From the IMG/VR virus record IMGVR_UViG_3300044684_000081, positions 1 through 48,283 of that record: a DNA stretch of 48,283 nucleotides. One strand, given 5' to 3'. Below the pieces are notes generated by a model. The model saw only the letters and a list, made by a program, of their open reading frames with translations. It was not told the origin of the DNA and searched no databases. The translations under genes were made by a program, and so were the position numbers. Source of the stretch: a virus. Every line of letters begins with the position of its first letter. Position 1 is the first letter of the stretch. Below, one piece after another: positions 14,942 through 35,343 of this stretch.

Positions 14942-14976
14942 CTATAGTAACACAAAAACCGTTACCGTTAGTAACA
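14942..14976 (-). promoter_or_regulatory. Tandem operator-like sites with a possible -10
   Basis: On the minus strand GTTACTAACGGTAACGG carries two overlapping copies of the phage-wide operator half site, followed by TATAGA. No good -35 is visible, so the promoter call is weak; the operator match is clear. Confidence 0.45.
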
Positions 14977-14991
14977 CTTCGGAAAATGTTG

Positions 14992-15600
14992 CTACTCTGC
15001 GACAGTAAAAGTTACCGGTACGGCATTCACAACTGCCTTGCTATCCGAGTTATGCCGCGCTTCGTTCGGCGTTTCGTAGAGCGAGCCGATATTAAATCGA
15101 CCCGAGGGGTGACGATATATATTCGCGTACATCGTTACTTCGCGCGATTTCATACGGATAGTTTGACCGACAGGCCACGTGGACGGGGTAGTATCGAATT
15201 GAAGGCTATCAAGCACTGGCAAACCACGTGCGACCCCGACAAATGTGGCGTCGATCCAATTGCCATTAAACAAAACTTCGATCGGTTCACCGCGTTTTGC
15301 TGCTTCTAGGTTGAATGATCGATTCGATTGTTCGCATTTCTCACGAAGTAGTCGAATCACGTCATCGCGTTCGCGTTGCATTTGTTCGAACGCTTTCAGG
15401 TTTTGAATCGCTACGTTATTGTGTCCATCGCGTTCGCGCTCAATCTTGTCAAATAAATCAATAATGTTCCGTTCGATGATATTGACCGCTGTGCGTTGGC
15501 GGTGACGCCACGGCGCCCCCGTCGCCGTGGCTGTGGTCAGCGCACCGAGTTCGGTCAGATATGATTTGAGCAGTTCGCGTAACTTTTCATGTTTTGCCAT
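14992..15600 (-). CDS. Unknown protein with coiled-coil N-terminal half
   Basis: A 202-aa protein with AGGAG nine bases before the ATG. Residues ~35-95 are strongly helical and charged (IIERNIIDLFDKIERERDG, then KAFEQMQRERDDVIRLLREK), probably coiled coil. The C-terminal half looks like small beta strands (FNGNWIDATFVGVARGLPVL). It is not a known virion gene to me. Its position between the portal and the SGNH lipoprotein could mean a late accessory role. Confidence 0.6.
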   Translation of the reverse strand: MAKHEKLRELLKSYLTELGALTTATATGAPWRHRQRTAVNIIERNIIDLFDKIERERDGHNNVAIQNLKAFEQMQRERDDVIRLLREKCEQSNRSFNLEAAKRGEPIEVLFNGNWIDATFVGVARGLPVLDSLQFDTTPSTWPVGQTIRMKSREVTMYANIYRHPSGRFNIGSLYETPNEARHNSDSKAVVNAVPVTFTVAE

Positions 15601-15612
15601 GACTGGTTTCTC

Positions 15613-15864
15613 CTATGAGTTGGTGGGGCCGGTCCAACCTGCCCCGGTAGCCGCACGCCCCGCATTTCCGCCGCCCCCACCTCCGCCGATCGTGCAAATG
15701 CTGGGGACGATACCGACCGTCGATGCGAAAACGGTTACTACGTTTCTGGTGTCAACTTGAACTGACATGCCGTCCAAGATTTCGGTGACGAACTTGCAAA
15801 CCGCATCCATATTCACATCGTCGCCGAAATGCTTCTTTGCGACTTCTTCGAGTGTCTTGCTCAT
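15613..15864 (-). CDS. Small unknown protein with glycine-rich tail
   Basis: An 83-aa protein whose ATG overlaps the stop of the SGNH lipoprotein gene (ATGA). The N-terminal half is helical (TLEEVAKKHFGDDVNMDAV); the C-terminal part is hydrophobic and then GGGGGGGNAGRAATGAGW. Translational coupling suggests that it works with the SGNH protein or is made at the same level. A longer upstream extension in this frame merely shadows the SGNH gene. Confidence 0.6.
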   Translation of the reverse strand: MSKTLEEVAKKHFGDDVNMDAVCKFVTEILDGMSVQVDTRNVVTVFASTVGIVPSICTIGGGGGGGNAGRAATGAGWTGPTNS

Positions 15865-16730
15865 GACGCGCCGCCCACGAGCTTTGCGACGATAGGTTTC
15901 AGCGCCGGGAAGTAATTCTTTTCCTTGTCCGCATACCCTGCATCGTTCGGGTGCACTCCGTCGCTCGACAGCCAAATAACGTTCCACGGTGAAGCATTCG
16001 GCGGCGCGGTGTAGTTCTCCCATTGGCTCAGATTGGGCAGCACGTAGCCGCCTGCGTTCGTGAACACGGGTCCGGCTGACTGAACGAGCGCGTTGGTGCC
16101 GTACGTCGGATCGAAATAGTTAGAATCGGACCGCGATGTTGGATTCGGCTCCGCGTACACCGGGATCGCGCCGTATGCCTGCACGGTCTGGATCCATTGC
16201 TGTGCATATGCCGTGTAGGTGCTTACGTTCTCATGCAGAACGTACTGATCGTTGATTTCACTATTCGTAATGACAATATCAGCATGAACAGGCAACGCCG
16301 CCAACCTAGATGCAAGCGGCGCAAGCGATGGCGCCGTCCCATTCAAATCGGACGGGAACGTGCTGCCAGGTATCGAGCCATCGATCACGCCAACGACGCC
16401 TTCGCCGAATGTTGCATTCATATCAGCTTGTAACAACTGCGCGGGTGATTTGTGAGCGCGTCCGACAACGCCGTTATTGACACCTGGCGCTTGCTGCTGA
16501 TTGTCTGTGTAATCAGCATCCACGCCCCACATAGTGGAATCACCGGCCAAATAGATCGTGACGTGACACTTGATACCCCCGGACGTATTAAGTGCAACGC
16601 ATGTTTGCGGCGCGGTCGTTGTGCCGGTTTTTGTTTGAGGTTGTTGTGCTGTTTGAGACGGCGCGACCGGTCCGCCCCCGCCGCAAGCCGCAAGCGCGGC
16701 ACAAATTACGATCGTCAAGATGTGTTTCAT
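15861..16730 (-). CDS. SGNH/GDSL-type hydrolase lipoprotein
   Basis: A 289-aa predicted lipoprotein. MKHILTIVICAALAAC forms a signal peptide with lipobox L-A-A-C16, followed by GGGG. Block I is GDSTMW (S65), a block III-like N160 is in NSEIND, and block V is DGVHPND (D257, H260), so the catalytic triad is present. GGAG lies eight bases before the ATG; an earlier in-frame start lies upstream of that site. Such hydrolases remove acyl groups from polysaccharides or lipids. Being secreted to the outer membrane, it probably alters the host surface rather than the virion. It has its own promoter and terminator, as in a moron. Confidence 0.82.
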   Translation of the reverse strand: MKHILTIVICAALAACGGGGPVAPSQTAQQPQTKTGTTTAPQTCVALNTSGGIKCHVTIYLAGDSTMWGVDADYTDNQQQAPGVNNGVVGRAHKSPAQLLQADMNATFGEGVVGVIDGSIPGSTFPSDLNGTAPSLAPLASRLAALPVHADIVITNSEINDQYVLHENVSTYTAYAQQWIQTVQAYGAIPVYAEPNPTSRSDSNYFDPTYGTNALVQSAGPVFTNAGGYVLPNLSQWENYTAPPNASPWNVIWLSSDGVHPNDAGYADKEKNYFPALKPIVAKLVGGAS

Positions 16731-16762
16731 TTCAAATTCTCCTAAGAGTTGATGGTGTAGCA

Positions 16763-16791
16763 AGTATAGGACCGTTAGTAATGAAATGCAA
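16763..16791 (-). promoter_or_regulatory. Promoter with operator in spacer, upstream of the SGNH lipoprotein gene
   Basis: On the minus strand TTGCAT - 17 bp - TATACT. The spacer carries TTACTAACGGT, one intact arm plus centre of the common palindrome. It lies about 35 bases before the lipoprotein start. Confidence 0.75.
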
Positions 16792-16800
16792 TGCGTGGCA

Positions 16801-16860
16801 CAAAAGAAAGCGCCCCATGTTCGGCGGTCCGGTATCCCGGTGCGTACTGATGGGGCGCTT
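16801..16860 (-). terminator. Large terminator-like hairpin
   Basis: An 11-bp perfect stem (AAGCGCCCCAT with ATGGGGCGCTT) encloses a 31-base loop that holds a second small hairpin (CCGGGATACCGG on the minus strand). On the minus strand it is followed by TCTTTTG. It ends the small-gene operon that starts near 18.0 kb. Confidence 0.65.
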
Positions 16861-16915
16861 AGTCGTTGCAGGGAGCTTGCTACTAGAACTACGTCGTTTC
16901 CGCGTTACCGCCGTC

Positions 16916-16978
16916 TTACGGGCGCACCATGCGTTCCATGAAGTATCGCGCTATGGGCAGATAGAGTGCCGCTCGCAT
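16916..16978 (-). CDS. Putative 20-residue peptide
   Basis: The frame MRAALYLPIARYFMERMVRP overlaps the stop of the preceding gene as TAATG, the same coupling used by other genes of this operon. It is too short to judge by composition; the overlap is the only support. The sequence from here to the hairpin at 16860 shows nothing else. Confidence 0.35.
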   Translation of the reverse strand: MRAALYLPIARYFMERMVRP

Positions 16979-17322
16979 TACTGTGCAATGACTGAATAAC
17001 AGTCTATCACGACTTGGGCATGATGTACGCGCCGCGCCATTTGGTTCGACATTTTCGATCGTTGCGGATCGTGACGCCATTCCGTTTGACCCTTGACCTT
17101 GATGTACAAATGTTCGTTCGGTCGCACATCTTGCGAATCGAGCAACGTCACGTTGATAGTTTGGCCCACAAGTCGCACGCGTTCAATGACGGCCTTCAAA
17201 ACCGGCATATACGTTGCATCTACATGGACGATGACGCAAGGGTTCGGATAGAAGCATTCGATTACTTTGCTACGCGGCACCTTGGCGATCTTAAGCAAGC
17301 GAGAGATGTCAGTGAGTGTCAT
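16978..17322 (-). CDS. Unknown protein
   Basis: A 114-aa protein. I chose ATG 17322, which overlaps the upstream stop (TAATG), over a GTG nine bases earlier. It begins MTLTDISRLLKIAKVPRSK and continues with beta-rich segments (PCVIVHVDATYMPVLKAVIE, then VGQTINVTLLDSQDV). The order of helix followed by strands suggests a small compact domain, possibly nucleic-acid-binding, but no motif is clear. It is part of a five-gene coupled operon. Confidence 0.6.
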   Translation of the reverse strand: MTLTDISRLLKIAKVPRSKVIECFYPNPCVIVHVDATYMPVLKAVIERVRLVGQTINVTLLDSQDVRPNEHLYIKVKGQTEWRHDPQRSKMSNQMARRVHHAQVVIDCYSVIAQ

Positions 17323-17585
17323 TAACTGCACTCCGAATCAAAACGGCGACGGATTTCATCTTCAAATGCTTGCGGCTCACGTTTTTCGCAATGACCGTAT
17401 ATCGTGCACAACGCCGGGCATGTGCAATTGATACACGTTACTCTAAGCGTCCGTTGCGCCATGAGTTCTGGGGTCGGTTCCTCGCTCAAAATCAAACTGA
17501 ATATCGCAAATACCAACACGATGAGGCCTATTGCAGTTGCAACACCGAGACATACGAATATGATTACAAGCGTATGCAAAGTCAT
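17322..17585 (-). CDS. Small membrane protein with cysteine cluster
   Basis: An 87-aa protein with one N-terminal transmembrane helix (residues ~6-33, LVIIFVCLGVATAIGLIVLV). It is followed by a cysteine-rich stretch (C-x2-C-x-C-x3-C-x5-C within CINCTCPALCTIYGHC). Four or more cysteines could bind metal or form disulfides if that part is periplasmic. There is no recognised family. Its stop overlaps the next start by TAATG. Confidence 0.62.
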   Translation of the reverse strand: MTLHTLVIIFVCLGVATAIGLIVLVFAIFSLILSEEPTPELMAQRTLRVTCINCTCPALCTIYGHCEKREPQAFEDEIRRRFDSECS

Positions 17586-17806
17586 CGTCCACCCCGCACG
17601 TGTCCGACCATCCGATAGTTGCCCATCGCGAGCGGTTCGAATGGTTTAAGTTCGACAGTAATAACGAAACCGGCAAGAAATGCATTGTCGAGCAACGTTA
17701 TCAATTGTTCTTGTAGCGATGCCTCGCAACTATGAAAAACGCGAGTGCCGGACTTATCTTCGCTGCGCGACGTGATCGGGCGTCGCGGGTCATTTTTCCA
17801 GGTCAT
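17582..17806 (-). CDS. Unknown small protein
   Basis: A 74-aa protein coupled by ATGA to both neighbours. It begins MTWKNDPRRPITSRSEDK, with a helical middle (ASLQEQLITLLDNAFLAGF) and a C-terminal strand (YRMVGHVRGGR). No function is recognised. The tight coupling and the shared promoter at 18028-18057 suggest an early or middle accessory gene. Confidence 0.6.
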   Translation of the reverse strand: MTWKNDPRRPITSRSEDKSGTRVFHSCEASLQEQLITLLDNAFLAGFVITVELKPFEPLAMGNYRMVGHVRGGR

Positions 17807-17994
17807 GACATCACCTCGCCATGCGCAGCAGAAACTTTGGGCGATTGTTCTTTGACTTCAATTTGCGCTCGATACAAACAGATTGGTCCGTTCGGTGCGA
17901 TCGGCACCACGGGATCGCCGTGCTCATGAATCGTCGCGGCGTATTCACCATCTTTGTACATCAGGCAAATCGTAAAAGTCTTTGTCGTAATCAT
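17803..17994 (-). CDS. Unknown small protein, first gene of its operon
   Basis: A 63-aa protein beginning MITTKTFTICLMYKDGEYA, with a proline-rich middle and no known motif. A GGAG lies seven bases before the ATG. It is the promoter-proximal gene downstream of the operator-bearing promoter at 18028-18057. Confidence 0.62.
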   Translation of the reverse strand: MITTKTFTICLMYKDGEYAATIHEHGDPVVPIAPNGPICLYRAQIEVKEQSPKVSAAHGEVMS

Positions 17995-18027
17995 GCTTGG
18001 AACTCCGGTTGGTTGAAGATGCCCCCA

Positions 18028-18057
18028 AGCATGCCACCGTTAGTAACGGTTCGTCAA
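18028..18057 (-). promoter_or_regulatory. Promoter with perfect 15-bp palindromic operator
   Basis: On the minus strand TTGACG - 18 bp - CATGCT, with the complete palindrome ACCGTTA-C-TAACGGT at 18050-18036 filling the spacer. It lies immediately after the terminase stop codon and drives the small-gene operon 17994-16916. The -10 is weak, which could mean that an activator is needed. Confidence 0.7.
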
Positions 18058-19670
18058 GCGAACAACGAAGATTTCTTCTCGGCCGGTGCGTACAGAATCA
18101 TCACCATGTCGGCATGGTTCGGCGAACGCGTGCCATCCGGCGTTTTGTCAATCAGCAACTTTCCCGAGCTATCGATATCATAGGTTGGTTGTGACAGTTC
18201 CGCCACGAGCCGCGCGCGCATCGTTGGCGGCAGATTTTCGCTGATGCTGATGAGTTCATCGGGCGGGAACAGAACACCGTCATGGATGGCCTGATGCGTC
18301 TTTTCGAATCGCTCGCGCAACGACCACCACGATTGAGCCTTGTAGTTCTTGAAAAAGTCTTCGTTCTTGCGCGCGCCGATACCACGGTCATCGCCCTTGA
18401 ACACGAGTTTTTCCTTGTTGACCACAGCACCAGAGCCGCGAAACTCCGAGAATTTGCGTTGGTTCGCAACGCGATCAGGTCGAGCGTTGATTTGCGCTGC
18501 GTCACCGCGCACCCCGGCGCCTAGACCGTCACCGTCATATCGACAGTTGTCGTAACCGTATTGATCGCAACGTAGGAACGCCTGCTCGGTCGTCCAAAAG
18601 ATCGTCTTGCCGTGGCCGCTCCAACTATCGATATGTTGCAACTCGATACCATGCCGACCGCCCCATGCGTTCAAGTCAAGACCTTCGTCGGCAACGTCGA
18701 GTGCGCTGAATTTACCGCCCGTTATCTCGATACCCAGCTTGCGGGCCGCACCGATTGCAGATTGAACCCATGCGGACGGGATCACGACGCCCTGTTTCGA
18801 TGCTGCGAAATCTAGGTCGATTTCCTGCGCCACAATCAGTGGGTTAAGGTTCGATTTCTGCCGTTCGTACCAGGCGTCATCTTTGCGCGGATCGTCGCGC
18901 CAGTGAAATGTGAAAACGCGATGTTCGGGCCATTCGTGACACTTTTCGGCAAATGGGTTATCCATGCCGTTGACCGAACTAATATCGATGCGGCAATTTG
19001 TGTTCTGCGATAGCGCCGCATCGATCAAGTGCGGCCTCTCCAAGAACGCCGACTCGTCAACAAAGTATTCCGACGTACGGCCGCCACGCCCGATGTTATC
19101 GCCCGCCTCGCCTCGCAAAATCGCACCGGTTTCGGGGATCGTCAAAAGCATGTGCGTCGAGCAAGATTTGTTCGTACCGGCCCATCCGCCGCGAAACTCG
19201 CGCGGAAGGTATTCGAGGAACATCCGAGCTTTATAGAACAAACAATCCGGATCGCCCGCTTTATCGACTAGAATTTCTTTGCGCGAGCCGAACCCGGCGA
19301 CGTACCCCTCGGTCGTGACTGCCTTAGCGCATGCGCGTGCAACGACCATCCACGACAAGCCCATATCGCGCGACTTCTTCGCGACACCGAACTCAGACGA
19401 TTGGTTTAGGCTCTCGATCCATTCTAGGAATTCGCGTTGCTTCGGAAACAGTATCAGCGGCATCAACGCCGGAAGCTTGCGCGAGATGTTACGCGGGTCG
19501 AACGTCACGCCCCAATCTTCTATTAGGTCGATCGGATTGTGACGGTAATGGACTTTGAGCGCGTTGGCGAGTCCGGTATCGCGGCGTATCTTCGCGAGCG
19601 TATCGATTCGCCATTGAAAGATGCGCGAGTAGTCCGGTTGCTTGAAATCGTGCGGATATGGGTACGGCAT
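18054..19670 (-). CDS. terL: Terminase large subunit
   Basis: A 538-aa packaging motor. The ATPase part has an adenine-binding/Walker A region AKKSRDMGLSWMVVARACAK (deviant, with Arg upstream as usual in TerL) and Walker B EYFVDESAF. The C-terminal nuclease begins near SALDVADEGLDLNAWGG, and YDNCRYDGDGLGAGVRGD carries acidic residues of the RNase H fold. The start is unusual: a terminator-like hairpin and T run end directly before the ATG at 19670 and there is no Shine-Dalgarno. The frame has a stop 24 bases upstream, so no other start is available. The small subunit gene lies 5 kb away. Confidence 0.92.
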   Translation of the reverse strand: MPYPYPHDFKQPDYSRIFQWRIDTLAKIRRDTGLANALKVHYRHNPIDLIEDWGVTFDPRNISRKLPALMPLILFPKQREFLEWIESLNQSSEFGVAKKSRDMGLSWMVVARACAKAVTTEGYVAGFGSRKEILVDKAGDPDCLFYKARMFLEYLPREFRGGWAGTNKSCSTHMLLTIPETGAILRGEAGDNIGRGGRTSEYFVDESAFLERPHLIDAALSQNTNCRIDISSVNGMDNPFAEKCHEWPEHRVFTFHWRDDPRKDDAWYERQKSNLNPLIVAQEIDLDFAASKQGVVIPSAWVQSAIGAARKLGIEITGGKFSALDVADEGLDLNAWGGRHGIELQHIDSWSGHGKTIFWTTEQAFLRCDQYGYDNCRYDGDGLGAGVRGDAAQINARPDRVANQRKFSEFRGSGAVVNKEKLVFKGDDRGIGARKNEDFFKNYKAQSWWSLRERFEKTHQAIHDGVLFPPDELISISENLPPTMRARLVAELSQPTYDIDSSGKLLIDKTPDGTRSPNHADMVMILYAPAEKKSSLFA

Positions 19671-19701
19671 GAAAAAGGGCCATGATGTTAGTCATGGCCC
19701 T
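19671..19701 (-). terminator. Terminator-like hairpin touching the terL start codon
   Basis: On the minus strand AAGGGCCATGA-CTAACA-TCATGGCCCTT is followed by TTTC and the ATG of terL. The 11-bp stem is perfect. It can act as terminator or as a translational control element. Confidence 0.65.
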
Positions 19702-19726
19702 TATGGTACGACGGGTAACGGTTAGA
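19692..19726 (-). repeat. 35-bp direct repeat, copy A (before terL)
   Basis: It matches 19822-19856 at 34 of 35 positions. On the minus strand it reads TCTAACCGTTACCC... to GGGCCATGA. It includes an operator-like TAACCGTTAC and an ATG. Confidence 0.85.
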
Positions 19727-19825
19727 TCAATCTTCGGATATGTCGCACGTATCAATCATGACGAACATTAATACGGCAATCACAAGTCCAGCTACTACGC
19801 CAACGACATCTATCAGATAGCTCAT
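19727..19825 (-). CDS. 32-residue single-pass membrane peptide
   Basis: MSYLIDVVGVVAGLVIAVLM followed by FVMIDTCDISED is one hydrophobic helix with a short acidic tail. The start at 19825 lies at the end of 35-bp repeat copy B; a longer upstream extension runs through the preceding gene and is not credible. Its function is unknown; small membrane peptides of phages often modulate lysis or exclude other phages. Confidence 0.5.
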   Translation of the reverse strand: MSYLIDVVGVVAGLVIAVLMFVMIDTCDISED

Positions 19826-19856
19826 GGCTCTTATGGTACGACGGGTAACGGTTAGA
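19822..19856 (-). repeat. 35-bp direct repeat, copy B
   Basis: It is nearly identical to 19692-19726 (one C/T difference), 130 bp apart. On the minus strand it covers the stop of the 52-aa gene, an operator-like TAACCGTTAC and the start of the 32-aa membrane peptide. Confidence 0.85.
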
Positions 19857-20010
19857 AATAATCCTTGATGCCTTGGCGTCGTCCGCGATCGATATACCAA
19901 ATGCGTTCCCAATCCCATCTAGGGTATCCGCGTTGTTGCATGACGACCCATGTAGGCTTAAATCCGAAAGACCCACGCGGGCGCGTGACCGGAATTTTTC
20001 GTACTTTCAT
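19852..20010 (-). CDS. 52-residue basic, aromatic small protein
   Basis: The frame starts MKVRKIPVTRPRGSFGFKPT and ends with YPRWDWERIWYIDRGRRQGI-KDYF. It is strongly basic and rich in Trp/Tyr. The ATG overlaps the stop of the upstream gene (ATGA). The regular composition and coupling make it a convincing gene. Its function is unknown; the charge suggests contact with nucleic acid or membrane. Confidence 0.65.
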   Translation of the reverse strand: MKVRKIPVTRPRGSFGFKPTWVVMQQRGYPRWDWERIWYIDRGRRQGIKDYF

Positions 20011-20192
20011 ACCGGCTCCCACGCGCCAACCAAAACACCTGGAGTTTGCGCCAACTTGACAAGTTCGTCAGCCGTCATTACTTCGTCGCGCGGCTCCCAT
20101 ACCCAATCGGTGAAGATTTCCGGCGCGCAAAACAACGGCCCGACTTTAACCAACTTCGGAACCTTGACCGAGTAGCGGACGCGGTAGCTCAC
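20007..20192 (-). CDS. Unknown small protein
   Basis: A 61-aa protein starting at GTG 20192, five bases after a strong GGGAGG, and overlapping the upstream stop (GTGA). It begins MSYRVRYSVKVPKLVKVGPL and ends with an acidic helix (DEVMTADELVKLAQTPGVLV). A beta strand followed by a helix suggests a compact fold. It is fourth in a five-gene coupled chain. Confidence 0.62.
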   Translation of the reverse strand: MSYRVRYSVKVPKLVKVGPLFCAPEIFTDWVWEPRDEVMTADELVKLAQTPGVLVGAWEPV

Positions 20193-20320
20193 AGTCCCTC
20201 CCGTACATCTGCTACACCCGGCGCGATTAGGTTGAGGGCCAGCAACGCGAGCACCAGGCGCGACTGTTGTGTGCGCGGCTCGCGGGCCAGGTCGATCAGG
20301 TCTTTCGCTAGTAGGCTCAT
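20189..20320 (-). CDS. 43-residue leucine-rich small protein
   Basis: MSLLAKDLIDLAREPRTQQS leads to a hydrophobic helix (RLVLALLALNLIAPGVA). It overlaps the upstream gene by ATGA and the downstream gene by GTGA. GGA lies ten bases before its ATG. It may be amphipathic or membrane-associated; no family is recognised. Confidence 0.55.
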   Translation of the reverse strand: MSLLAKDLIDLAREPRTQQSRLVLALLALNLIAPGVADVREGL

Positions 20321-20385
20321 TTGGTTAATTCCGTTTTCACAAATGCGATTACCTTTCGTTCGACCTTAACAACAATGAATTTCAT
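20317..20385 (-). CDS. 22-residue peptide in a coupled chain
   Basis: MKFIVVKVERKVIAFVKTEL-TK is coupled by ATGA at both ends. On its own such a short frame would not be credible, but its place as an exact link between two genes suggests translation. It could act mainly to pass ribosomes down the message. Confidence 0.45.
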   Translation of the reverse strand: MKFIVVKVERKVIAFVKTELTK

Positions 20386-20567
20386 TCTGTTCTCCGCTTT
20401 TCATCACCACGTACCGTATCGCCAGACTTGACACGCTGGATACGGGCCATTTCTGCCTGCACCATCAATTTTGCTCCGACGATTGCGATGATAGCTTGGG
20501 CACGATCACCGGTATCAAGTTTCACTTGCGCCTTGAGCAACAGCGCTTCCAATGCATAAAGGTCCAT
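20382..20567 (-). CDS. Unknown small helical protein, first of the chain
   Basis: A 61-aa protein (MDLYALEALLLKAQVKLDTG, then RAQAIIAIVGAKLMVQAEMA) that is almost wholly helical with a basic tail. It is the first gene behind the promoter at 20603-20631 and starts the ATGA/GTGA chain 20567-19852. No family is recognised. Confidence 0.6.
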   Translation of the reverse strand: MDLYALEALLLKAQVKLDTGDRAQAIIAIVGAKLMVQAEMARIQRVKSGDTVRGDEKRRTE

Positions 20568-20602
20568 TTCGCTAACTCTCGGTTGGTTTGAACATGCGAC
20601 GA

Positions 20603-20631
20603 ATGTTAGCCGAGAAAGTAACGGTTTGCAA
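20603..20631 (-). promoter_or_regulatory. Promoter with operator half site in spacer
   Basis: On the minus strand TTGCAA - 17 bp - TAACAT. The spacer begins ACCGTTACT, one arm of the common palindrome. It lies between the terminator at 20635-20672 and the five-gene chain. Confidence 0.72.
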
Positions 20632-20634
20632 GCA

Positions 20635-20672: not shown

Positions 20673-20767
20673 AGGGCCGGTATTGACCGGCAGCACCCGT
20701 AACGATCTACGGGACGCGAACGCATCTACTCACCGGCGTTCCTGGTACGGGTAACTAACCCCGTTCG

Positions 20768-20980
20768 TTACGACTGCTGACCTTCTTCCGAATTGTCGCG
20801 CGCTTGGGCGAGATTTTCGAAATGGATGATACCGGCGTGGATGTTGTCGATGATGTCTTGCTCGCCACGCTCCAACAGCGTCAGGATGCGCTTGAACAGG
20901 GATTCGTGTGCGGCCGGAACGGTGATACTGATCGGGGCGGTGCCAGTGTCGCTATATTGTGTTGCTTGTTCGTCGGGCAT
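20768..20980 (-). CDS. Unknown acidic small protein
   Basis: A 70-aa protein. I chose ATG 20980 (MPDEQATQYSDTGTAPISIT), with GGAG nine bases upstream; a longer frame would cross the promoter. The C-terminal half is helical and acidic (ESLFKRILTLLERGEQDIID). It is rich in D/E/Q and soluble. The role is unknown. Confidence 0.62.
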   Translation of the reverse strand: MPDEQATQYSDTGTAPISITVPAAHESLFKRILTLLERGEQDIIDNIHAGIIHFENLAQARDNSEEGQQS

Positions 20981-21005
20981 GTCTGTTTCTCCAATGATGG
21001 GTTGT

Positions 21006-21056
21006 ATTACTAACGGTACGACGGCGACACTATAGCATGCCGCACTGGTCATGCAA
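21006..21056 (-). promoter_or_regulatory. Promoter with operator just downstream of the -10
   Basis: On the minus strand TTGCAT - 16 bp - TATAGT, then ACCGTTAGTAA about 12 bases further on. Here the operator arm lies near +10, not in the spacer. The -35 lies inside the end of the preceding gene. Confidence 0.6.
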
Positions 21057-21899: not shown

Positions 21900-21928
21900 T
21901 TGTAAAACCGTTACTAACGATCTAACAT
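21900..21928 (+). promoter_or_regulatory. Early promoter with operator in spacer
   Basis: TTGTAA - 17 bp - TAACAT. The spacer carries ACCGTTACTAACG (13 of 15 palindrome positions). A second pair of half sites, AACGGT and ACCGTTAC, lies downstream at 21936-21958 in the leader. It reads into the plus-strand cluster. Confidence 0.75.
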
Positions 21929-21985: not shown

Positions 21986-22582
21986 ATGAACAAGACGCAA
22001 ATTCGTGCATACACCAAAGCACTCGTAGAATCCGCCGCACATCGTGCTATCGCGCTAGAGATCGAACTGGCCGTAGGGCTCGCCGTCATGCACGAGTGCG
22101 CGCCGTCCAAGCGGCTCGGTCGCGAAACGTTGCTGACGATCTATCATGCGGCGGGATGGCAGTGCGAGAAGCCCGGTACGATCGACTGGCGCGCGGTCAA
22201 TCGGCGCATTACCGCCAGCATCGCACTGTACGACTTCATGCCGGACGACGTGGCGCAATTGGCCGAGTCATCCAAAGGCGTCGATCTGGTTGATGCGCTT
22301 CGACCGATGATTAAGGCGCTCAAGGTGAAGTCGATCAACGAAGTGTTGCTTGCGACGGACCGTGTGCGACCGCCGAAGAAATCTCCCGGTCAGCACGTCG
22401 AGGGACAACGGATCGACGTGGGTCACTTGCATCTAGTCGTGCCGCCGAGCGCGACACGCGACGAGTTGATTGCACTTGCGACGCAACTCATGACGATGGC
22501 AGCATCCGACGCGTTCGTTAAGCCCGCCGTTGCGGCGCCTGAGTCGGTCGCGGCGGAATCGGGTGAACAGGTCGCGGCATGA
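21986..22582 (+). CDS. Unknown early protein
   Basis: A 198-aa protein, the first gene of the plus-strand cluster. I use ATG 21986, which has GAGGT six bases upstream. The N-terminal helix (QIRAYTKALVESAAHRAIAL) is followed by a mixed domain (GRETLLTIYHAAGWQCEKPG). The C-terminal ~40 residues are alanine-rich and probably flexible. There is no recognised domain; the early position would fit a host-takeover or regulatory role. Confidence 0.65.
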   Translation: MNKTQIRAYTKALVESAAHRAIALEIELAVGLAVMHECAPSKRLGRETLLTIYHAAGWQCEKPGTIDWRAVNRRITASIALYDFMPDDVAQLAESSKGVDLVDALRPMIKALKVKSINEVLLATDRVRPPKKSPGQHVEGQRIDVGHLHLVVPPSATRDELIALATQLMTMAASDAFVKPAVAAPESVAAESGEQVAA

Positions 22583-22762: not shown

Positions 22763-22820
22763 TTGTCGATGGAAGAGTTGCAAAACCGTTAGTAACGGTA
22801 TATGATTCTTCCATCGACAA
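22763..22820 (+). promoter_or_regulatory. Promoter with perfect operator, enclosed by a 14-bp inverted repeat
   Basis: TTGCAA (22778-22783) - 17 bp - TATGAT (22801-22806). The perfect palindrome ACCGTTA-G-TAACGGT fills the spacer at 22785-22799. The whole promoter is bracketed by TTGTCGATGGAAGA (22763-22776) and its exact complement at 22807-22820. The right arm would lie in the first transcribed bases and the left arm is upstream of -35, so the repeat is more likely a protein site or cruciform than an RNA hairpin. Confidence 0.82.
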
Positions 22821-22842: not shown

Positions 22843-23088
22843 ATGAACACGCCGAGCAATCTTTTCGAGCAGACGAACGAGCTTGAACGCAGCGCTATCG
22901 CAATAATGCTTGGATTCTCTAACTACGCCGACAGCCGCAGCGAGTTTTCAGGGTTCCGTATCGCGCTTCGGGGTATCCCCGCCGTACAAGGCGCGCCGAC
23001 CATCGGCGATTTGACGCAGGCTTATCTCATGGGTCTGTCGAAATATCTCGAAGCAGTTATGCAGCCTAACCACCGCGCCCGCTTCTAG
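22843..23088 (+). CDS. Unknown small protein
   Basis: An 81-aa protein. I use ATG 22843 rather than GTG 22837 because AAGGGGG then has the better spacing. It begins MNTPSNLFEQTNELERSAIA and has a C-terminal helix (LTQAYLMGLSKYLEAVMQP). It is the first gene behind the boxed promoter, so it is probably strongly regulated. No family is recognised. Confidence 0.62.
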   Translation: MNTPSNLFEQTNELERSAIAIMLGFSNYADSRSEFSGFRIALRGIPAVQGAPTIGDLTQAYLMGLSKYLEAVMQPNHRARF

Positions 23089-29458: not shown

Positions 29459-29667
29459 TTGTATTTACTCCTAGTCAAGTCGGCGATGATGTCGCCAATG
29501 TTGGGGATGTTTGCCGCACGTAATAACTGAACCGCATGTTCGATACCGGCCGCGCGGCCCAGCATGAACCCACGCTCGTATGTTTCATCGAGTGCCCGAG
29601 TCACATGATCCGGTCGGGACGATGGCAAGAAATCACGCGGCGGTATATGGGGCGATTGCTTCGTCAT
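29455..29667 (-). CDS. Unknown small protein
   Basis: A 70-aa protein from ATG 29667 (MTKQSPHIPPRDFLPSSRPD); starts at 29685 or 29688 are possible and none has a ribosome binding site, so translation is probably coupled to the overlapping upstream gene. A helix, RALDETYERGFMLGRAAGIE, fills the middle. The function is unknown. Confidence 0.52.
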   Translation of the reverse strand: MTKQSPHIPPRDFLPSSRPDHVTRALDETYERGFMLGRAAGIEHAVQLLRAANIPNIGDIIADLTRSKYK

Positions 29668-30067
29668 AGTAGGCACAGAACGCATCAACTAGAGCGCGGC
29701 GAGTTGCTGACGCGGTATTCTTGAGACAAGACGTGACGAACCATTTCGATGCGCCGATTTGGACGCGAACGTCGTTGGTGCTATAAACGACTCGAACGAC
29801 GTATGGCAAGTACGTGACACCGTTGCCGATCGCTGTATGCGTTACGAATCCATTCGACCGGGCAACACCGAGCAATTCGAGCGCGTGCATGGTGTTGTAC
29901 TCTGGATCGAAGCGCGCACGATCGTTATCGGGAAATTTGACATAGATAGCCGATTCATCGCGCACTGCATATACATATACGTCTGCGCCGACAGCGAACG
30001 CGCATTTCGCGGCGCGTTGCAGTGTTACATCTTTGATTTCGTCAACGTTAGCGATATGTTCCATCAT
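29633..30067 (-). CDS. Unknown protein
   Basis: A 144-aa protein from ATG 30067, coupled by ATGA to the XRE regulator upstream. It is beta-rich in the middle (DVYVYAVRDESAIYVKFPDN) with a C-terminal helix (SATRRALVDAFCAYYDEAI). The position directly behind a regulator suggests it shares that regulator's control. No family is recognised. Confidence 0.6.
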   Translation of the reverse strand: MMEHIANVDEIKDVTLQRAAKCAFAVGADVYVYAVRDESAIYVKFPDNDRARFDPEYNTMHALELLGVARSNGFVTHTAIGNGVTYLPYVVRVVYSTNDVRVQIGASKWFVTSCLKNTASATRRALVDAFCAYYDEAIAPYTAA

Positions 30068-30300
30068 CTTTCCCCATACGCAATATAGTCGAGTTCGCAA
30101 TCGAGCACTTTGGCGATTTCGACAATAGTGAAAAACATCGGATTCGCGACTTGATTGGTTTCGATATGCAGCAGTTGTGCATAGTGAATACCGACCCGTT
30201 TAGCTAAATCTTTAGCGGTCATTTCACGCTCAACGCGCAATCGGCGAATCCGTGTGCCCATCGCTTCGCGGAAGCCTGGCACGGCCGAGGTTTGGGTCAT
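30064..30300 (-). CDS. Cro/C1-type (XRE) transcriptional regulator
   Basis: A 78-aa helix-turn-helix protein. I use ATG 30300 (MTQTSAVPGFREAMG), with GGAG five bases upstream. The HTH is clear: RIRRLRVEREMTAKDLAKRV, YAQLLHIETNQVAN and VEIAKVLDCELDYIAYGE. It overlaps the end of the preceding frame by 71 bases. It is the third XRE protein of the phage and less like the tandem pair at 24 kb. Confidence 0.82.
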   Translation of the reverse strand: MTQTSAVPGFREAMGTRIRRLRVEREMTAKDLAKRVGIHYAQLLHIETNQVANPMFFTIVEIAKVLDCELDYIAYGER

Positions 30301-30457
30301 ACCAACTCCATGTAGGTCTAGTAATAAACGGTGCGGGCTCCCATCGACTCCAACCCGGTACACCGATCCGTTTGTATCGAATGAACCATTGCCCATCTTC
30401 GCGCATGGCGCACTGTTTTGTGCCTGCGTTGTTGCGGAATATGGGTGACGAGTTCAT
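30230..30457 (-). CDS. Unknown small protein overlapping the regulator gene
   Basis: A 75-aa frame whose ATG lies two bases after the upstream TAA. It has an aromatic core (DGQWFIRYKRIGVPGWSRWE) that looks like true protein. The last 71 bases overlap the XRE gene in another frame, an unusually long overlap here. It has no clear ribosome binding site; translation by reinitiation is likely. Confidence 0.5.
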   Translation of the reverse strand: MNSSPIFRNNAGTKQCAMREDGQWFIRYKRIGVPGWSRWEPAPFITRPTWSWYDPNLGRARLPRSDGHTDSPIAR

Positions 30458-30459
30458 GG

Positions 30460-30651
30460 TTAAACGCCAGTGACGTTAACTATTGCGTATGGATTCGGTC
30501 GTATTACGATAGGACCGCCATAAAACAAATCGATGAAACCGAGCGTCGTCGAAATACCCGAATCCTGAGCCTTGCGCCGATTCATAACATACGCTGTTGA
30601 CGGAAAACCAAATTCGCGTATCCGATGCTTGATGATTCGACGCACTTTCAT
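30460..30651 (-). CDS. Unknown small protein
   Basis: A 63-aa protein (MKVRRIIKHRIREFGFPSTA) with a basic N-terminus and a hydrophobic C-terminal half (LGFIDLFYGGPIVIRPNPYA). GGAG lies eight bases before the ATG, and it overlaps the upstream gene by ATGA. The function is unknown. Confidence 0.58.
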   Translation of the reverse strand: MKVRRIIKHRIREFGFPSTAYVMNRRKAQDSGISTTLGFIDLFYGGPIVIRPNPYAIVNVTGV

Positions 30652-30818
30652 CGCTCGCGCTCCAACGCTTCGAACTCACGCGCCCGGCTCAACAGTTCTA
30701 TGCTATCCGATACTTCCGTTTGGAACCGTGCTGCACGAATGCGATTGAACGATGCGAGTCGTTGCAGATTTTCGCGCTGTTGGAGTAAGAACCGTTGTTC
30801 GTCTTCGGTCAATAGCAT
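30648..30818 (-). CDS. Unknown small helical protein
   Basis: A 56-aa protein from ATG 30818, with GGAG six bases upstream and the previous stop one base before. MLLTEDEQRFLLQQRENLQR and the rest form one or two long charged helices ending EFEALERER. It probably forms a coiled coil. Confidence 0.58.
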   Translation of the reverse strand: MLLTEDEQRFLLQQRENLQRLASFNRIRAARFQTEVSDSIELLSRAREFEALERER

Positions 30819-30819
30819 G

Positions 30820-31233
30820 TCAAGCTCCGATACGAACGATTGCGATATTCGGCACGCCTGCAAAACGCTGACGAACGGTTTTGAGTGCATCGGCGCGTGT
30901 AGCATATGCCATTGGTTGAATCGTTCCACGGTCATAACAAAGGCGCCAGGGGCGTTGTGCGTACCATTCTTCGCTACCGATTAAGGGGCGCGCTGCTTTG
31001 CGAATCATGTGCGTTTCGGCGTCGGCTATGCTTTTGCGCCCGAGCAGCGCGCTAGACAATTCCGACATATATCGTTTCATCGCGTTGAGCGCGGCCGGAT
31101 ATCCACTAACGATCGCGATCTCGATTTCATTGCTGTCGAGTGCGATGTATCCGATACGATACTTGCGACCGTCCGATGTGATCGTAAAGCCGTTGTCTGC
31201 GGCAAACTGTTTTGCTACTTGTGCGGGTGTCAT
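30820..31233 (-). CDS. Unknown protein
   Basis: A 137-aa protein from ATG 31233 behind TAGGAG. It starts with a helix (MTPAQVAKQFAADNGFTITS) and a strand (RKYRIGYIALDSNEIEIAIV), then helices and a C-terminal WRLCYDRGTIQPMAYATRAD. The first 60 residues resemble small phage domains seen in several accessory proteins. No named family. Confidence 0.6.
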   Translation of the reverse strand: MTPAQVAKQFAADNGFTITSDGRKYRIGYIALDSNEIEIAIVSGYPAALNAMKRYMSELSSALLGRKSIADAETHMIRKAARPLIGSEEWYAQRPWRLCYDRGTIQPMAYATRADALKTVRQRFAGVPNIAIVRIGA

Positions 31234-31241
31234 GATTGCTC

Positions 31242-31331
31242 CTAGTGAACGAAGGGATAGAGAGTGCCGGTTTGCACCATGCTCGTCCAAATCCAGACGA
31301 GCATGGCTGCGACGAACAGTAACGATTTCAT
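31242..31331 (-). CDS. 29-residue membrane leader peptide
   Basis: MKSLLFVAAMLVWIWTSMVQ-TGTLYPFVH has a single hydrophobic segment. GAGGT lies nine bases before the ATG, and its stop TAG is part of the TAGGAG that serves the next gene. It is the first reading frame behind the promoter at 31360-31389. Confidence 0.5.
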   Translation of the reverse strand: MKSLLFVAAMLVWIWTSMVQTGTLYPFVH

Positions 31332-31359
31332 GTATGGACCTCGGGTTGCGTTGGTGTCA

Positions 31360-31389
31360 AGTATAGAACCGTTACTTGTGTAAGTGCAA
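31360..31389 (-). promoter_or_regulatory. Promoter with operator half site in spacer
   Basis: On the minus strand TTGCAC - 18 bp - TATACT. The spacer contains AAGTAACGGTT, one arm of the common palindrome. It drives the long small-gene operon 31331-28521. Confidence 0.75.
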
Positions 31390-31390
31390 G

Positions 31391-31424
31391 CACAAAATGC
31401 AACGGGCCGCATATGCGGCCCGTT
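31391..31424 (-). terminator. Terminator (GGGCCGC family)
   Basis: AACGGGCCGC and GCGGCCCGTT pair across ATAT. On the minus strand GCATTTTG follows. It ends the TetR-like gene message just before the next promoter. Confidence 0.72.
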
Positions 31425-31446
31425 TGGTGCGATCGACGAATGTTCG

Positions 31447-31746
31447 TCACTGTGTCAAGCGTTTGACTTCGGCGGCAAGATTGCGCGGCATGTTCGGCAG
31501 TTCGTAATACTCGGACGCCTCGGCAAGCGTCTTGGCGTCTTTCTCCGCAACAGCCAGTTCGAGCACGGCCCCGCGTAGACCTTCACGCGATCCGAAGTAG
31601 CGATTGAGCAGACCATCGCTTACACCGACTTCGCGAGCGATCGCGGCGCGCGTCACCTTGCGAATGCCATGTTTGCGGGCGATCAATAAACCAACTTGGG
31701 TCAGTTGAGCGGTGCGGTCGTCAGCGGTCATACGTTCGTTTGCCAT
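31447..31746 (-). CDS. TetR-like helix-turn-helix protein without ligand domain
   Basis: A 99-aa protein that looks like only the DNA-binding part of a TetR regulator: VGLLIARKHGIRKVTRAAIA, then REVGVSDGLLNRYFGSREGL, i.e. helix-turn-helix with the Y-F-G-S-R-E-G motif. The rest is one helix (LELAVAEKDAKTLAEASEYY). Full TetR proteins are about 200 aa, so ligand sensing is absent. GGAA precedes the ATG. An operator-like CTAACCGTAAC lies upstream at 31764-31774, which suggests autoregulation and makes it a good candidate for the palindrome-binding factor. Confidence 0.72.
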   Translation of the reverse strand: MANERMTADDRTAQLTQVGLLIARKHGIRKVTRAAIAREVGVSDGLLNRYFGSREGLRGAVLELAVAEKDAKTLAEASEYYELPNMPRNLAAEVKRLTQ

Positions 31747-31788
31747 GATTCAGGGTTCCTCATTAGTTACGGTTAGGTGCTGCGAATG

Positions 31789-32274
31789 TTACAACGTTCC
31801 GGGGCCAGTTGCAAATGCTGCATCACAGCCGTCCGCAATAGCCAGTTTCAAAAAATTAAATTGTGCCGCTTCGTGCTTGTCGTTTGGGTTGAACGTCCAA
31901 CCTTCGTATTTCATCTCGCGCATACATGCTTGTCCGATCGTCGTACCGATCATCTCCGGCGTGATAATGACACGACGCCAACCAATAAGATCGGGCGATG
32001 CGAACTGTTCATTCCACGCCTTCGATACATTACCGAGCCCGAACCGGATCAAGCGCCCATTGTCATCCTTGAACGCACCGGAGTTGTTACGGAACAACCG
32101 AATACCCATGCGCGCCGCTTCAAGCGATACCAGGTCTTGCTGACGCGCCTCGGAACCGAGCTTAGCGTTAATATCGCCGTGAAGCTCGCCGGTTTCGACA
32201 CCGAGCATAAGTTTTAATGCGCGCAACGGTTCAGCGCCGACGCCATAGATACATGCCCACATATCGAGTGTCAT
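31789..32274 (-). CDS. VRR-NUC-type nuclease
   Basis: A 161-aa protein. RLFRNNSGAFKDDNGRLIRF, SPDLIGW and REMKYEGW give the Asp and Glu-x-Lys of the PD-(D/E)XK fold as arranged in VRR-NUC proteins, and QFNFLKLAIADGCDAAFA the final helix and strand. VRR-NUC nucleases often resolve branched DNA and accompany DUF2800/DUF2815 replication modules. It overlaps the upstream gene by ATGA. An N-terminal ~45-residue extension is present. Confidence 0.78.
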   Translation of the reverse strand: MTLDMWACIYGVGAEPLRALKLMLGVETGELHGDINAKLGSEARQQDLVSLEAARMGIRLFRNNSGAFKDDNGRLIRFGLGNVSKAWNEQFASPDLIGWRRVIITPEMIGTTIGQACMREMKYEGWTFNPNDKHEAAQFNFLKLAIADGCDAAFATGPGTL

Positions 32275-32492
32275 TTATCGCTCCCCTTCGCCGCGTCGCG
32301 CTCGACGCGCAAACAGTTAGGATGCCCTTCCGGGTAAGCACACGGAATATCGCCGTCGTTTCCGTTGCAGGCGCGGCAGCGTTGCTCGGTTCCGCGCTCC
32401 GTCCAATGTGGCCAGCGATTGAACAGCGGTGCATATTTCTCGCGAAAGCGGGCTACCGCACGACGCTCGATTCTTCGTTGATGGGCGTTCAT
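32271..32492 (-). CDS. Small zinc-finger-like protein
   Basis: A 73-aa protein from ATG 32492 (MNAHQRRIERRAVARFREKY), coupled by ATGA. After a basic helix it carries C-x2-C-x8-C-x6-H-x2-C (RCRACNGNDGDIPC and YPEGHPNC), a likely zinc site. The function is unknown; a DNA-binding helper of the neighbouring helicase and nuclease is possible. Confidence 0.6.
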   Translation of the reverse strand: MNAHQRRIERRAVARFREKYAPLFNRWPHWTERGTEQRCRACNGNDGDIPCAYPEGHPNCLRVERDAAKGSDK

Positions 32493-33190
32493 CCTTTCTC
32501 TCCCGCGCGGTCGATGCGCTCGATTTCGGCAAGTCCGCGAAACTCGAAATCGTCGCGTCCTCTCTTGTGCTTTACCAGAAGCTCCGTGCAGTTCGCCCAA
32601 TCGATCCACTTCACCCCGTCGAAGAAACGGTATTGCCACTGCACTACTGCCGCCCCGCTAACCAGCGATGCTGCCGCGCGGGCCGCTTTCCATATCTCGA
32701 AACCGCTATCAGGATCGTCCACAAAATCCCAATTGCCGTCTTTGCAGCGCCACTCGTCGTATGCTCCGCGCTCGTCCTGCGCTCCGCTTCCCTTATATTG
32801 AACCGAACGAATACCTTCGCGGCGAACCTGTGCGACAACATCACAGAGTGACGCTTGTTTGGCTGCGCCTTCTTCGCCGTTCAGCAACACATCAAGCTCA
32901 CGCACAAGGCGCTTTTGATCGTCCTGCGGTGCTGCGGGCGTCGGGGCGGCGCACTCACTGCGTCGATATGGCTTGTACCATTTGCGCACTTCCGGCGGAA
33001 ACTTTTGGTACCTCGAATCCGTGACGTAGCGCGTATATCCAGCAGTAGTTGATTCCCATGCAATCGGCTCCGGCTGCCCCGCGCTGGCGAGGATGGCACG
33101 AGCGAAGGCAATGCAACGATCAGGCGACCAATATTCATGATCTATGGCATGGTGTCGCACTAATTCAAGTATTCGTTCGTCAGTCAGCAT
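32489..33190 (-). CDS. Unknown mosaic protein
   Basis: A 233-aa protein built of short modules. The start (LTDERILELVRHHAIDHEYW, then CIAFARAILASAGQPEPIAW) is a motif often seen at the N-terminus of proteins in Burkholderia phages. It is followed by a middle helix and a C-terminal WQYRFFDGVKWIDWANCTEL segment. Such modules recombine among small phage proteins. It lies between helicase and nuclease; the function is unknown. Confidence 0.62.
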   Translation of the reverse strand: MLTDERILELVRHHAIDHEYWSPDRCIAFARAILASAGQPEPIAWESTTAGYTRYVTDSRYQKFPPEVRKWYKPYRRSECAAPTPAAPQDDQKRLVRELDVLLNGEEGAAKQASLCDVVAQVRREGIRSVQYKGSGAQDERGAYDEWRCKDGNWDFVDDPDSGFEIWKAARAAASLVSGAAVVQWQYRFFDGVKWIDWANCTELLVKHKRGRDDFEFRGLAEIERIDRAGEKG

Positions 33191-33497
33191 TCTTGCCCCC
33201 GTTGAGGGTAGTATCGCGGAAATGATCCTGAACGCGCTGTTCGTACGATCGATACTTATTAGCTCGATGTCGTTGCCGACGTTGAGCGCGGGACAAGTTC
33301 GGGCGATAGCTCGGATTCATCTGCGGCGTCGGTTCAAGATCAACACCGAGCGCGCGTAGTTGTTGATCTAGCGGCAACAGTTGCTCGCGCACTTCGTTGA
33401 AGCGTTTTGCACCGATGTTAGGCTGCTTCAACGCGTGCGCTAGCGTAGCGCGCAGTTGCATTAAGTGGTCGATGACTTTTTCACGATCGACATTCAT
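33180..33497 (-). CDS. Unknown basic helical protein
   Basis: A 105-aa protein that overlaps the helicase stop by ATGA. The N-terminal two thirds form two helices (REKVIDHLMQLRATLAHALK, then FNEVREQLLPLDQQLRALGV). The C-terminus is very basic (RAQRRQRHRANKYRSYEQRV). It may bind nucleic acid as a helicase partner; that is inference from charge and position. Confidence 0.6.
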   Translation of the reverse strand: MNVDREKVIDHLMQLRATLAHALKQPNIGAKRFNEVREQLLPLDQQLRALGVDLEPTPQMNPSYRPNLSRAQRRQRHRANKYRSYEQRVQDHFRDTTLNGGKNAD

Positions 33498-35275
33498 ACG
33501 TGCTCCGGTTCGTTAATAACGGTCAGGTCGTCAGGCGTAACGATACCACGATTTGCAAGATCAGCAACGATCCGTCGATGTAACATTTCGGCTTCGGGTC
33601 GACCGAGCGTCATCGCTTGTAGGCCGTCCATGTTGAATGTGAACCAAAAACGGCGCCAGTTGACGCTAGTGTCATCGCCAGGTTGCGCGGTAGCCGTGTA
33701 CCAAAACGCCATGAGTGCGCGTAGTCGATGCTGTGCTGCCTGCCGTTCCATATGTCGCTTGACTGCCGCGATATGTGCCGGTCCTGACAGGTTCGGCGGT
33801 GCGCCGTCGATACGCGCGATTTCGCCGCGATACTGAGCAAGGATCGCCGGATCAATTTCAGCTAGATCGCCATCGACTTGCGCCGGTCCACCGCGTTCGG
33901 CTGGGGGCGGCGCAGCGGTGCCGCAATATGGGCATACGTTGTAGATGCGTTCATATGGCTTGGCACACCATATGTTTTCGCGGGTGTCCCATCCGAGGCA
34001 TACTCGCATCGGTATTCCATCGTTGACGGATGGTCCGCGCTTGCTTCCAGCATCGAGCGTCCAAATGCGCGGCTTGTCGGGCGGCCCTTTGTGAAAGTAG
34101 AAGTTGCCGACGTGATCGAAGATGAACGCAAACGGCTTGCCAGACGTGCGGATGAATTCAAGCCGTTGCGCGACAGTGTATGTATCCCATGCGTTTGCAA
34201 GCATTGGTGAAACCATCAAGCGCAACGCACGACCCCACATTTGCGAGTACAGCGCAAACGATGCGGTGAGCCGCCCGAACGACACACACTCGATAGCTGG
34301 AAGGTCGAAGCCTTCGCCGAATAGATCGACGTTGATTAGCTGCCATAACTCACGGTTTTTGAATCGACGAATCGTCGTGCGTCGAACGGTTTCGTCATCT
34401 TCGCCGGTGAGTACGGCGGCCGGAATACCCTTACGATTGAACTCGACACATATCTCATACGCATGTTCGATATCTTGCGCGAACGTTACGCCGAGCTTGC
34501 CGCGCGCATGTTCGATGTATGTATCGACGATGCTACCGACGAGTTTTTTCGACTTGTGCACGGCGTCGCGTGCCTGATCCTGATTGAACTCACCCGATGC
34601 TCCGACATCGATACCTTCCGTCGTGAGATCGTCAGGTTTGAGTGTGATTACTTTGTAGTCGGTCAGATACGCGTTATCGATCAGCCAACGCATCGGCGGC
34701 CCTTCCACAAGCGCGTCAGCGATGCCATGTGCATGCGATCCCAAACCCTTGCGATCGGCGCGAACCGGGGTAGCGGTCGGTAACAGATATCGAGCATTGC
34801 GGAAAAGATCAGCGGCCTTACCCCATTTGTTCTCACGCAAGACATGGTGCGCTTCATCGATATGTACCATCCCGACGTTATCGGGCCAAGCGCCAAGTTC
34901 GCGTCGAGTGATCGTATCGACGGACGCAACTTTCCACGGGGACCGGGCGTTGTAGAATGTGCGTCCGAACTCTTCCACATGCGCCGCTACGATCGTGCGT
35001 ATTACCTTATCTGACGCTATCAAACCGTGCGGAACTTCTTCGCGCGCCAGTTGCATCGACATTTGGCCGAGCAGTTCGCCCCGGTGCGCGATACTGCAAC
35101 CGGCTGGAAATCGATGATCCCACGGATTTGCAATGTGATCTTTTGCGAACGAGCCCATAATGACGGTCTTGCCGCCCCCGGTCGATAGTTGCATCATGAC
35201 CGCTCGCGCGCCCCTAAGATACGCGCCGTTTGCGTCATCTTTCAACTCTTGTTGAAACCTGCGAAGATTTGACAA
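33494..35275 (-). CDS. SF2 DEAH-type helicase
   Basis: A 593-aa helicase. Motif I is LSTGGGKTVIMGSF near residue 31; motif II is MVHIDEAHH; motif III is LLPTATPVRADRKG. The second RecA domain ends with SQMWGRALRL (motif VI). Near residue 450 a zinc ribbon starts with CPYCG. The start is TTG 35275, five bases after GGAG, with a divergent promoter upstream. It belongs to the phage recombination/replication helicases that accompany DUF2800/DUF2815 genes. It is first in its operon. Confidence 0.88.
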   Translation of the reverse strand: MSNLRRFQQELKDDANGAYLRGARAVMMQLSTGGGKTVIMGSFAKDHIANPWDHRFPAGCSIAHRGELLGQMSMQLAREEVPHGLIASDKVIRTIVAAHVEEFGRTFYNARSPWKVASVDTITRRELGAWPDNVGMVHIDEAHHVLRENKWGKAADLFRNARYLLPTATPVRADRKGLGSHAHGIADALVEGPPMRWLIDNAYLTDYKVITLKPDDLTTEGIDVGASGEFNQDQARDAVHKSKKLVGSIVDTYIEHARGKLGVTFAQDIEHAYEICVEFNRKGIPAAVLTGEDDETVRRTTIRRFKNRELWQLINVDLFGEGFDLPAIECVSFGRLTASFALYSQMWGRALRLMVSPMLANAWDTYTVAQRLEFIRTSGKPFAFIFDHVGNFYFHKGPPDKPRIWTLDAGSKRGPSVNDGIPMRVCLGWDTRENIWCAKPYERIYNVCPYCGTAAPPPAERGGPAQVDGDLAEIDPAILAQYRGEIARIDGAPPNLSGPAHIAAVKRHMERQAAQHRLRALMAFWYTATAQPGDDTSVNWRRFWFTFNMDGLQAMTLGRPEAEMLHRRIVADLANRGIVTPDDLTVINEPEHV

Positions 35276-35293
35276 AATTTCTCCAATAGATGC

Positions 35294-35343
35294 TTGACTG
35301 TTAGTAACGATCGCATCATACTTCGTTCCGTCTTACCCATCAA
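35294..35343. promoter_or_regulatory. Overlapping divergent promoters sharing one operator
   Basis: Plus strand: TTGACT (35294) - 17 bp - CATACT (35317-35322), towards the 457-aa gene. Minus strand: TTGATG (35343-35338) - 17 bp - TATGAT (35320-35315), towards the helicase. The -10 elements overlap. The operator core GTTAGTAAC (35300-35308) lies in the plus spacer and just downstream of the minus -10, so one bound protein would affect both directions. Confidence 0.75.

Follow-up and report, generated by a model that had tools for sequence, protein, structure and literature searches.

The window analysed here is the entire IMG/VR virus record IMGVR_UViG_3300044684_000081 (48,283 bases), in which the palindrome ACCGTTA-S-TAACGGT (S being G or C) recurs far more often than expected by chance and appears to be a conserved operator used phage-wide. 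A 99-residue TetR-type protein encoded by the phage (hereafter mini-TetR; its gene, tetR) probably binds this palindrome and represses most phage promoters, its own included; a probability of roughly 0.7 is assigned to this reading. One conserved operator recurring at many promoters, as in the regulons of the phages L5 and phiC31, was indeed found, in support of an original prediction that a genome-wide operator within sigma70-type promoters on both strands marks a phage regulon.

The operator itself, its placement and its conservation are established by computation. Two perfect 15-letter copies stand at 18036–18050 and 22785–22799, exactly where they had been predicted, and the seven partial copies predicted with them are all present, either in place or displaced by no more than 1–3 bases. 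When up to three mismatches are allowed, the window holds 16 matches on both strands, as against 1.1 expected from dinucleotide shuffles, none of which reaches 16. Across 12 related sequences of the clade (463 kb), a position weight matrix with a score cutoff of >20 retrieves 64 sites, of which 51 are intergenic in sequence that is 93% coding and 6.8% non-coding by the mechanical gene calls made in this analysis; the motif is thus not equally common inside genes. Column-permuted matrices return approximately zero sites from the same sequences. Although the matrix was trained on the sites that it scores, this training has no bearing on how they divide between intergenic and coding sequence; a cutoff of >7 proved too low, since coding matches swamp the signal. 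The gene calls and promoters are mechanical predictions, and the relatives are non-independent samples. The operator sites of the window and the associated elements are listed below, the strand being that of the promoter or gene concerned.

22785–22799: perfect operator, filling the spacer of TTGCAA-17-TATGAT (plus strand), promoter of 22843–23088
18036–18050: perfect operator, in the spacer of TTGACG-18-CATGCT (minus strand), promoter of an operon of small genes that begins at 17994
21907–21921: operator with one mismatch, in the spacer of TTGTAA-17-TAACAT (plus strand), promoter of 21986–22582
16771–16785: operator with three mismatches, in the spacer of TTGCAT-17-TATACT (minus strand), promoter of the GDSL-like lipoprotein gene 15861–16730
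35297–35311: operator with two mismatches, common to two divergent promoters; on the plus side TTGACT-17-CATACT, promoter of gene 35362–36735; on the minus side directly downstream of the -10 TATGAT of the helicase operon
20618–20625 (minus strand): half-site, in the spacer of TTGCAA-17-TAACAT (minus strand), promoter of 20382–20567
31368–31375: half-site, in the spacer of TTGCAC-18-TATACT (minus strand), promoter of 30820–31233
14964–14978: operator with two mismatches and an overlapping extra half-site from 14958, in the -35 region of the virion (portal) operon promoter (minus strand)
14944–14949 (minus strand): -10 TACTAT of the virion-operon promoter, with TGT in front, heading the portal/virion operon
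21003–21017: degenerate operator within the leader of 20768–20980 (minus strand), on the downstream side of a TATAGT -10
31759–31773 (minus strand): degenerate operator ACCGTAACTAATGAG, in the tetR leader, candidate autoregulation site
33509–33523: operator-like site with an A/T centre, 12 bp upstream of 33180–33497 and within the 3' end of the helicase coding sequence
31447–31746 (minus strand): tetR, 99 residues, family phrog_8723, proposed binder; TetR_N helix-turn-helix (HTH) plus about 40 residues, no ligand-binding domain

The seven sites previously assigned to -35/-10 spacers do lie in or against a spacer (16771, 18036, 21907, 22785, 35297 and the half-sites 20618 and 31368); site 14964 lies outside any spacer, at the -35 of the virion-operon promoter, and site 21003 lies downstream of its -10. 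Two copies had been overlooked, namely the degenerate tetR leader site and the one within the helicase gene, the latter being common in position to relatives, with a conservation that coding constraint could explain. The operator centre falls 9–10 bp upstream of the -10 hexamer in 38 of 71 intergenic sites, whereby the operator fills the 17–18 bp spacer (e.g., TTGCAA-AACCGTTASTAACGGTT-TATACT and, in G023, TTGCAA AACCGTTACTAACGGTT TATACT). Every genome contributes such sites, and the same phase is found at 79 of 3000 random intergenic points (p ~1e-40, a nominal value since related sites are non-independent). In a second class, the operator stands at the -35 of the virion-operon promoter, 255–332 bp upstream of portal, in all eight genomes with an S centre (the window and 7/7 other relatives); in most of them its centre and the -10 are about 15 bp apart, and the copies of the window and G001 are composite. 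Because of this operator, the virion operon belongs to the regulon, from which it had earlier been left out. A third class is positioned at or past the start site, i.e., at the helicase operon, tetR and 20768–20980, and the helicase position is repeated in G001, G003, G005, G006 and G022. Promoters of the MerR type have long spacers of 19–20 bp; the spacers here are of the normal 17–18 bp, so that the comparison with MerR made in the original prediction does not hold and simple occlusion is likelier than spacer remodelling or activation of that type.

Searches with terminase and polymerase yielded eight other long records of 38–48 kb (G001–G006, G021 and G022) and many fragments. With up to three mismatches and a free centre base, the palindrome occurs 10 to 18 times in each of the eight, as against approximately 1–2 expected, and its count is zero in two fragments with terminases 46–51% identical. 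G004, G010 and G009 have A/T rather than G/C as the centre base. A scan of all 2.9 million viral contigs of IMG/VR for the operator plus a -10 returned 23 stretches. Comparison of 13 of these with the window proteins revealed close homologues in 12 and a chance match in one, and the remaining 10 come from contigs previously assigned to the clade; with 22 of 23 stretches from its members, the combination is nearly exclusive to one phage clade.

The mini-TetR carries a TetR_N DNA-binding domain (PF00440, 3.6e-9, above the gathering score), with TetR-type matches among PDB profiles, and matches the profile of phrog_8723, a family of unknown function, at 3e-16. Its AlphaFold2 model is confident (pLDDT 89), all-helical and ends after two short helices; the nearest PDB folds by Foldseek are those of LuxR, HapR and SmcR of the TetR family (best E ~0.009, probability 1.0), whose HTH end the model matches. 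The C-terminal helical dimerisation/ligand domain of a full-length TetR is absent from the 99 residues, and the relatives measure 92–111 residues. Among HTH genes, tetR is the only one conserved in all nine long genomes (50–79% identity), with a near-invariant recognition helix, V[ST]DGL[LI]NRYF. The variant VTDGL occurs in the A/T-centre lineages with a known tetR (G004 and G025) and VSDGL in the G/C-centre lineages; with only two lineages, a tracking of the operator centre base by the recognition helix is suggestive at best. In the window, the site ahead of tetR follows a TTGCAA-N17-TAACAT promoter (promoter score 10.7) and immediately precedes the ribosome-binding site. A recognisable degenerate operator precedes tetR in all ten genes compared, each time between the promoter and the ribosome-binding site. 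In G004, the leader site ACTGTTATTAACTAT has an A/T-type centre like the other operators of that genome; in G025, whose mini-TetR is 43% identical, ACCGTTAATAACGAC lies in the spacer of TTGACG-17-TAGTAT, accompanied by a weaker copy in a promoter spacer.

Members of phrog_8723 are further found in Klebsiella Jedunavirus, Vibrio VP16T/VP16C, 1.009.O, CKB-S1, Acinetobacter phage Scuro, Pseudomonas phage Psp6 and others, with profile matches of 1e-14 to 1e-41 for JD001, Scuro, VP16C, Psp6 and others. About a dozen of these phages were covered by exact gapped-palindrome counts, which replaced an earlier ranking by intergenic enrichment (three mismatches over 12 positions) that was too permissive. 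In Jedunavirus, TGACGN4CGTCA occurs 10, 11 and 11 times in JD001 (L108), LAPP1 (L112) and cmc20193 (L114), as against a second-order Markov maximum of 3; the left half of the full palindrome TTGACGN4CGTCAA (TTGACGNNNNCGTCAA-type) is usually the -35 TTGACG, and a variant copy lies at the tetR promoter. Similarly, Scuro carries TGACAN4TGTCA five times, the tetR and helicase promoters among them. In both groups, placement over the -35 is usual, the half-site itself being a good -35. PY6 (L116) carries GTAGCGCN4GCGCTAC 5–6 times within promoter-like sequence, and VP16C and 1.009.O carry GCTAATCTAACG-like sites, in small counts, at the tetR, helicase and polymerase promoters. Their positions are as follows.

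PY6 (L116), GTAGCGCNNNNGCGCTAC: 7107, 8014, 12382, 19992 and 28188, in promoter-like context of the TTGACA-N17-TACACT type
Vibrio phage L093, GCTAATCTAACG-like repeats: 26144, 31668–31690 and 35576
Vibrio phage L109, GCTAATCTAACG-like repeats: 30707–30729, 36759 and 39674

It is about an even bet that phrog_8723 comprises widespread, minimal, ligand-free TetR proteins that serve as chief timers of transcription in phages that appear to be lytic. Every clade would then pair a mini-TetR of its own with a palindrome of its own, set in many promoters (in the spacer, the -35 or the -10), including the tetR promoter or leader and, here, the virion operon, so that one protein would set the early-to-late programme.

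In the proposed mechanism, the mini-TetR would bind ACCGTTA-S-TAACGGT as a symmetric dimer, which would occlude the host sigma70 holoenzyme from its seat in the -35/-10 spacer, at the -35 or around the start site. From the position of the operators, we infer a mainly repressive effect, exerted on the early operons, the small accessory genes, the divergent helicase/recombination promoters, the virion operon and, weakly, tetR itself. As for timing, closure would begin with the strong operators and end with the weak tetR leader site, which would make the regulator level self-limiting. Several observations weigh against this reading. Binding by the mini-TetR, the only candidate regulator that fits, is argued from elimination and co-occurrence, and its TetR domain would have to dimerise without the C-terminal bundle. 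The operator in the tetR leader is a weak one, with the poorest copies in G001 and G006, and autoregulation could be over-read. The virion-operon operator sits about half a helical turn off the spacer position (15 versus 9–10 bp upstream of the -10), and a different, even activating, role is therefore possible there. Moreover, the motif of VP16C and 1.009.O is not cleanly palindromic, and the exact counts gave no convincing recurring palindrome in Psp6, SppYZU01, PD0307, PLPE or Vibrio 367.14.

That shifted operator is the starting point for a dual regulator, in which the mini-TetR would repress early promoters from the spacer and activate the virion operon from the -35, driving an early-to-late switch. 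All eight S-centre virion promoters are without a consensus -35 hexamer (TTACCG/TGACCG-like) and have the operator there instead, beside a reasonable -10, its centre mostly about 15 bp away rather than 9–10; however, the -35-overlapping position is also usual in the promoters of Jedunavirus and Scuro, where the half-site makes a good -35, and the sequence gives no argument for an activation surface, which leaves the dual role rather doubtful. Slightly less doubtful, but still unlikely, is a role in immunity, with the mini-TetR maintaining a lysogenic or plasmid-like carrier state instead of timing lytic growth. Like an immunity repressor, it would cover nearly every operon, the virion operon included, but neither a tyrosine integrase, a serine recombinase nor ParA was detected in eight genomes (PF00589, PF00239 and PF13614), which makes it more probable that the system times a lytic or carrier cycle than that it maintains integrated lysogeny. 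Jedunavirus phages, which carry phrog_8723, are also described as lytic in two reports (PMC11672853, PMC6763647).

The identity of the binder admits two further explanations, both very improbable. The original prediction named three XRE proteins, a truncated TetR-like protein and a ribbon-helix-helix (RHH)-like protein as candidates; the TetR-like protein answers to every expectation, and the XRE and RHH-like proteins fail. In favour of the XRE and RHH-like proteins, the window encodes HTH_3 proteins, and spacer operators are used by RHH repressors, P22 Arc among them. The XRE genes 23983 and 24231 are confined to the closest one or two relatives (G001/G002, or G001 alone), and the RHH-like gene 28247 is absent from G004, which carries operators. 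The recognition helices of XRE 30064 differ throughout among G000, G001 and G022 while their operators remain alike, and no orthologue was found in G021. As for a host-encoded regulator to which the phage promoters are tuned, the promoters do resemble host sigma70 promoters; against this, the site is nearly confined to one phage clade, its centre base varies by phage lineage with the G004 tetR leader following suit, and phages with the same kind of protein carry different palindromes.

The repression proposed for the mini-TetR through repeated operators can be compared with several known systems. The repressor of L5-type (cluster A) mycobacteriophages binds, as a monomer, more than 20 asymmetric 13-mer sites, and the likeness lies in a single small phage HTH protein with sites genome-wide in promoters and short intergenic gaps (PMC9283540). 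The L5 sites are oriented with transcription and also stop elongation, whereas the site here is a symmetric 15-mer, mostly in promoters and on both strands, its best copies being perfect palindromes, so that a stoperator system of the cluster A kind does not apply; the proposed protein is moreover of the TetR type, and an integrase was not found among the genomes searched. The repressor of the Streptomyces phage phiC31 likewise acts on conserved inverted repeats throughout the genome that overlap early promoters, but it is unrelated and much larger, and phiC31 is a temperate phage with an integrase. With the TetR family (TetR/tetO, BetI, HapR/LuxR/SmcR), the mini-TetR has the HTH fold in common; tetO, too, is a palindrome of odd length centred on one base pair, and members of the family typically regulate their own genes. 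The mini-TetR differs in having no C-terminal dimerisation/ligand domain or inducer pocket and in a putative regulon that spans the whole phage genome. The operator of P22 Arc at Pant similarly lies between -35 and -10, but the protein has the RHH fold and acts at a single promoter region of a temperate phage. In the open-licence literature searched, no report was found of this operator, of a function for phage mini-TetR proteins, of the Jedunavirus palindrome or of TetR-type phage-wide control with promoter-embedded palindromes. If true, the proposal would provide a function for phrog_8723, found in Klebsiella Jedunavirus, marine, Acinetobacter and uncultured phages, and would mean that phages without sign of lysogeny can run their programme via one small repressor and a repeated operator. 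The protein–operator pairs of differing specificity would lend themselves to direct testing and to use as compact orthogonal repressors.

The record is classed as linear and carries a 127-base direct terminal repeat (1–127 and 48157–48283), because of which the window probably represents a phage genome in full. Its genes include those for terminase, portal, a family A DNA polymerase, helicase, primase, lysozyme and Rz. The lipoprotein gene 15861–16730, under an operator promoter, has a weak GDSL-esterase match; since no homologue was detected in the eight long relatives, it resembles an accessory gene of variable occurrence that shares the common operator. A GGGGCG...TTTTCTTTTGTG-like sequence precedes several operator promoters in the window (e.g., 16785–16805 and 31376–31400) and in relatives, and is possibly the terminator of the upstream gene. 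Several relatives have copies of ACCGTTAATAACGGA a short distance ahead of a virion gene; these were given no operator role, as they may represent a stop codon plus ribosome-binding site. At 19700–19850 (minus strand), a short way upstream of the gene for the terminase large subunit, the leader TAACCGTTACCCGTCGTACCATAAG(A/G)GCCATGA is common to two successive gene starts; it includes the half-site ACCGTTAC without being a palindrome.

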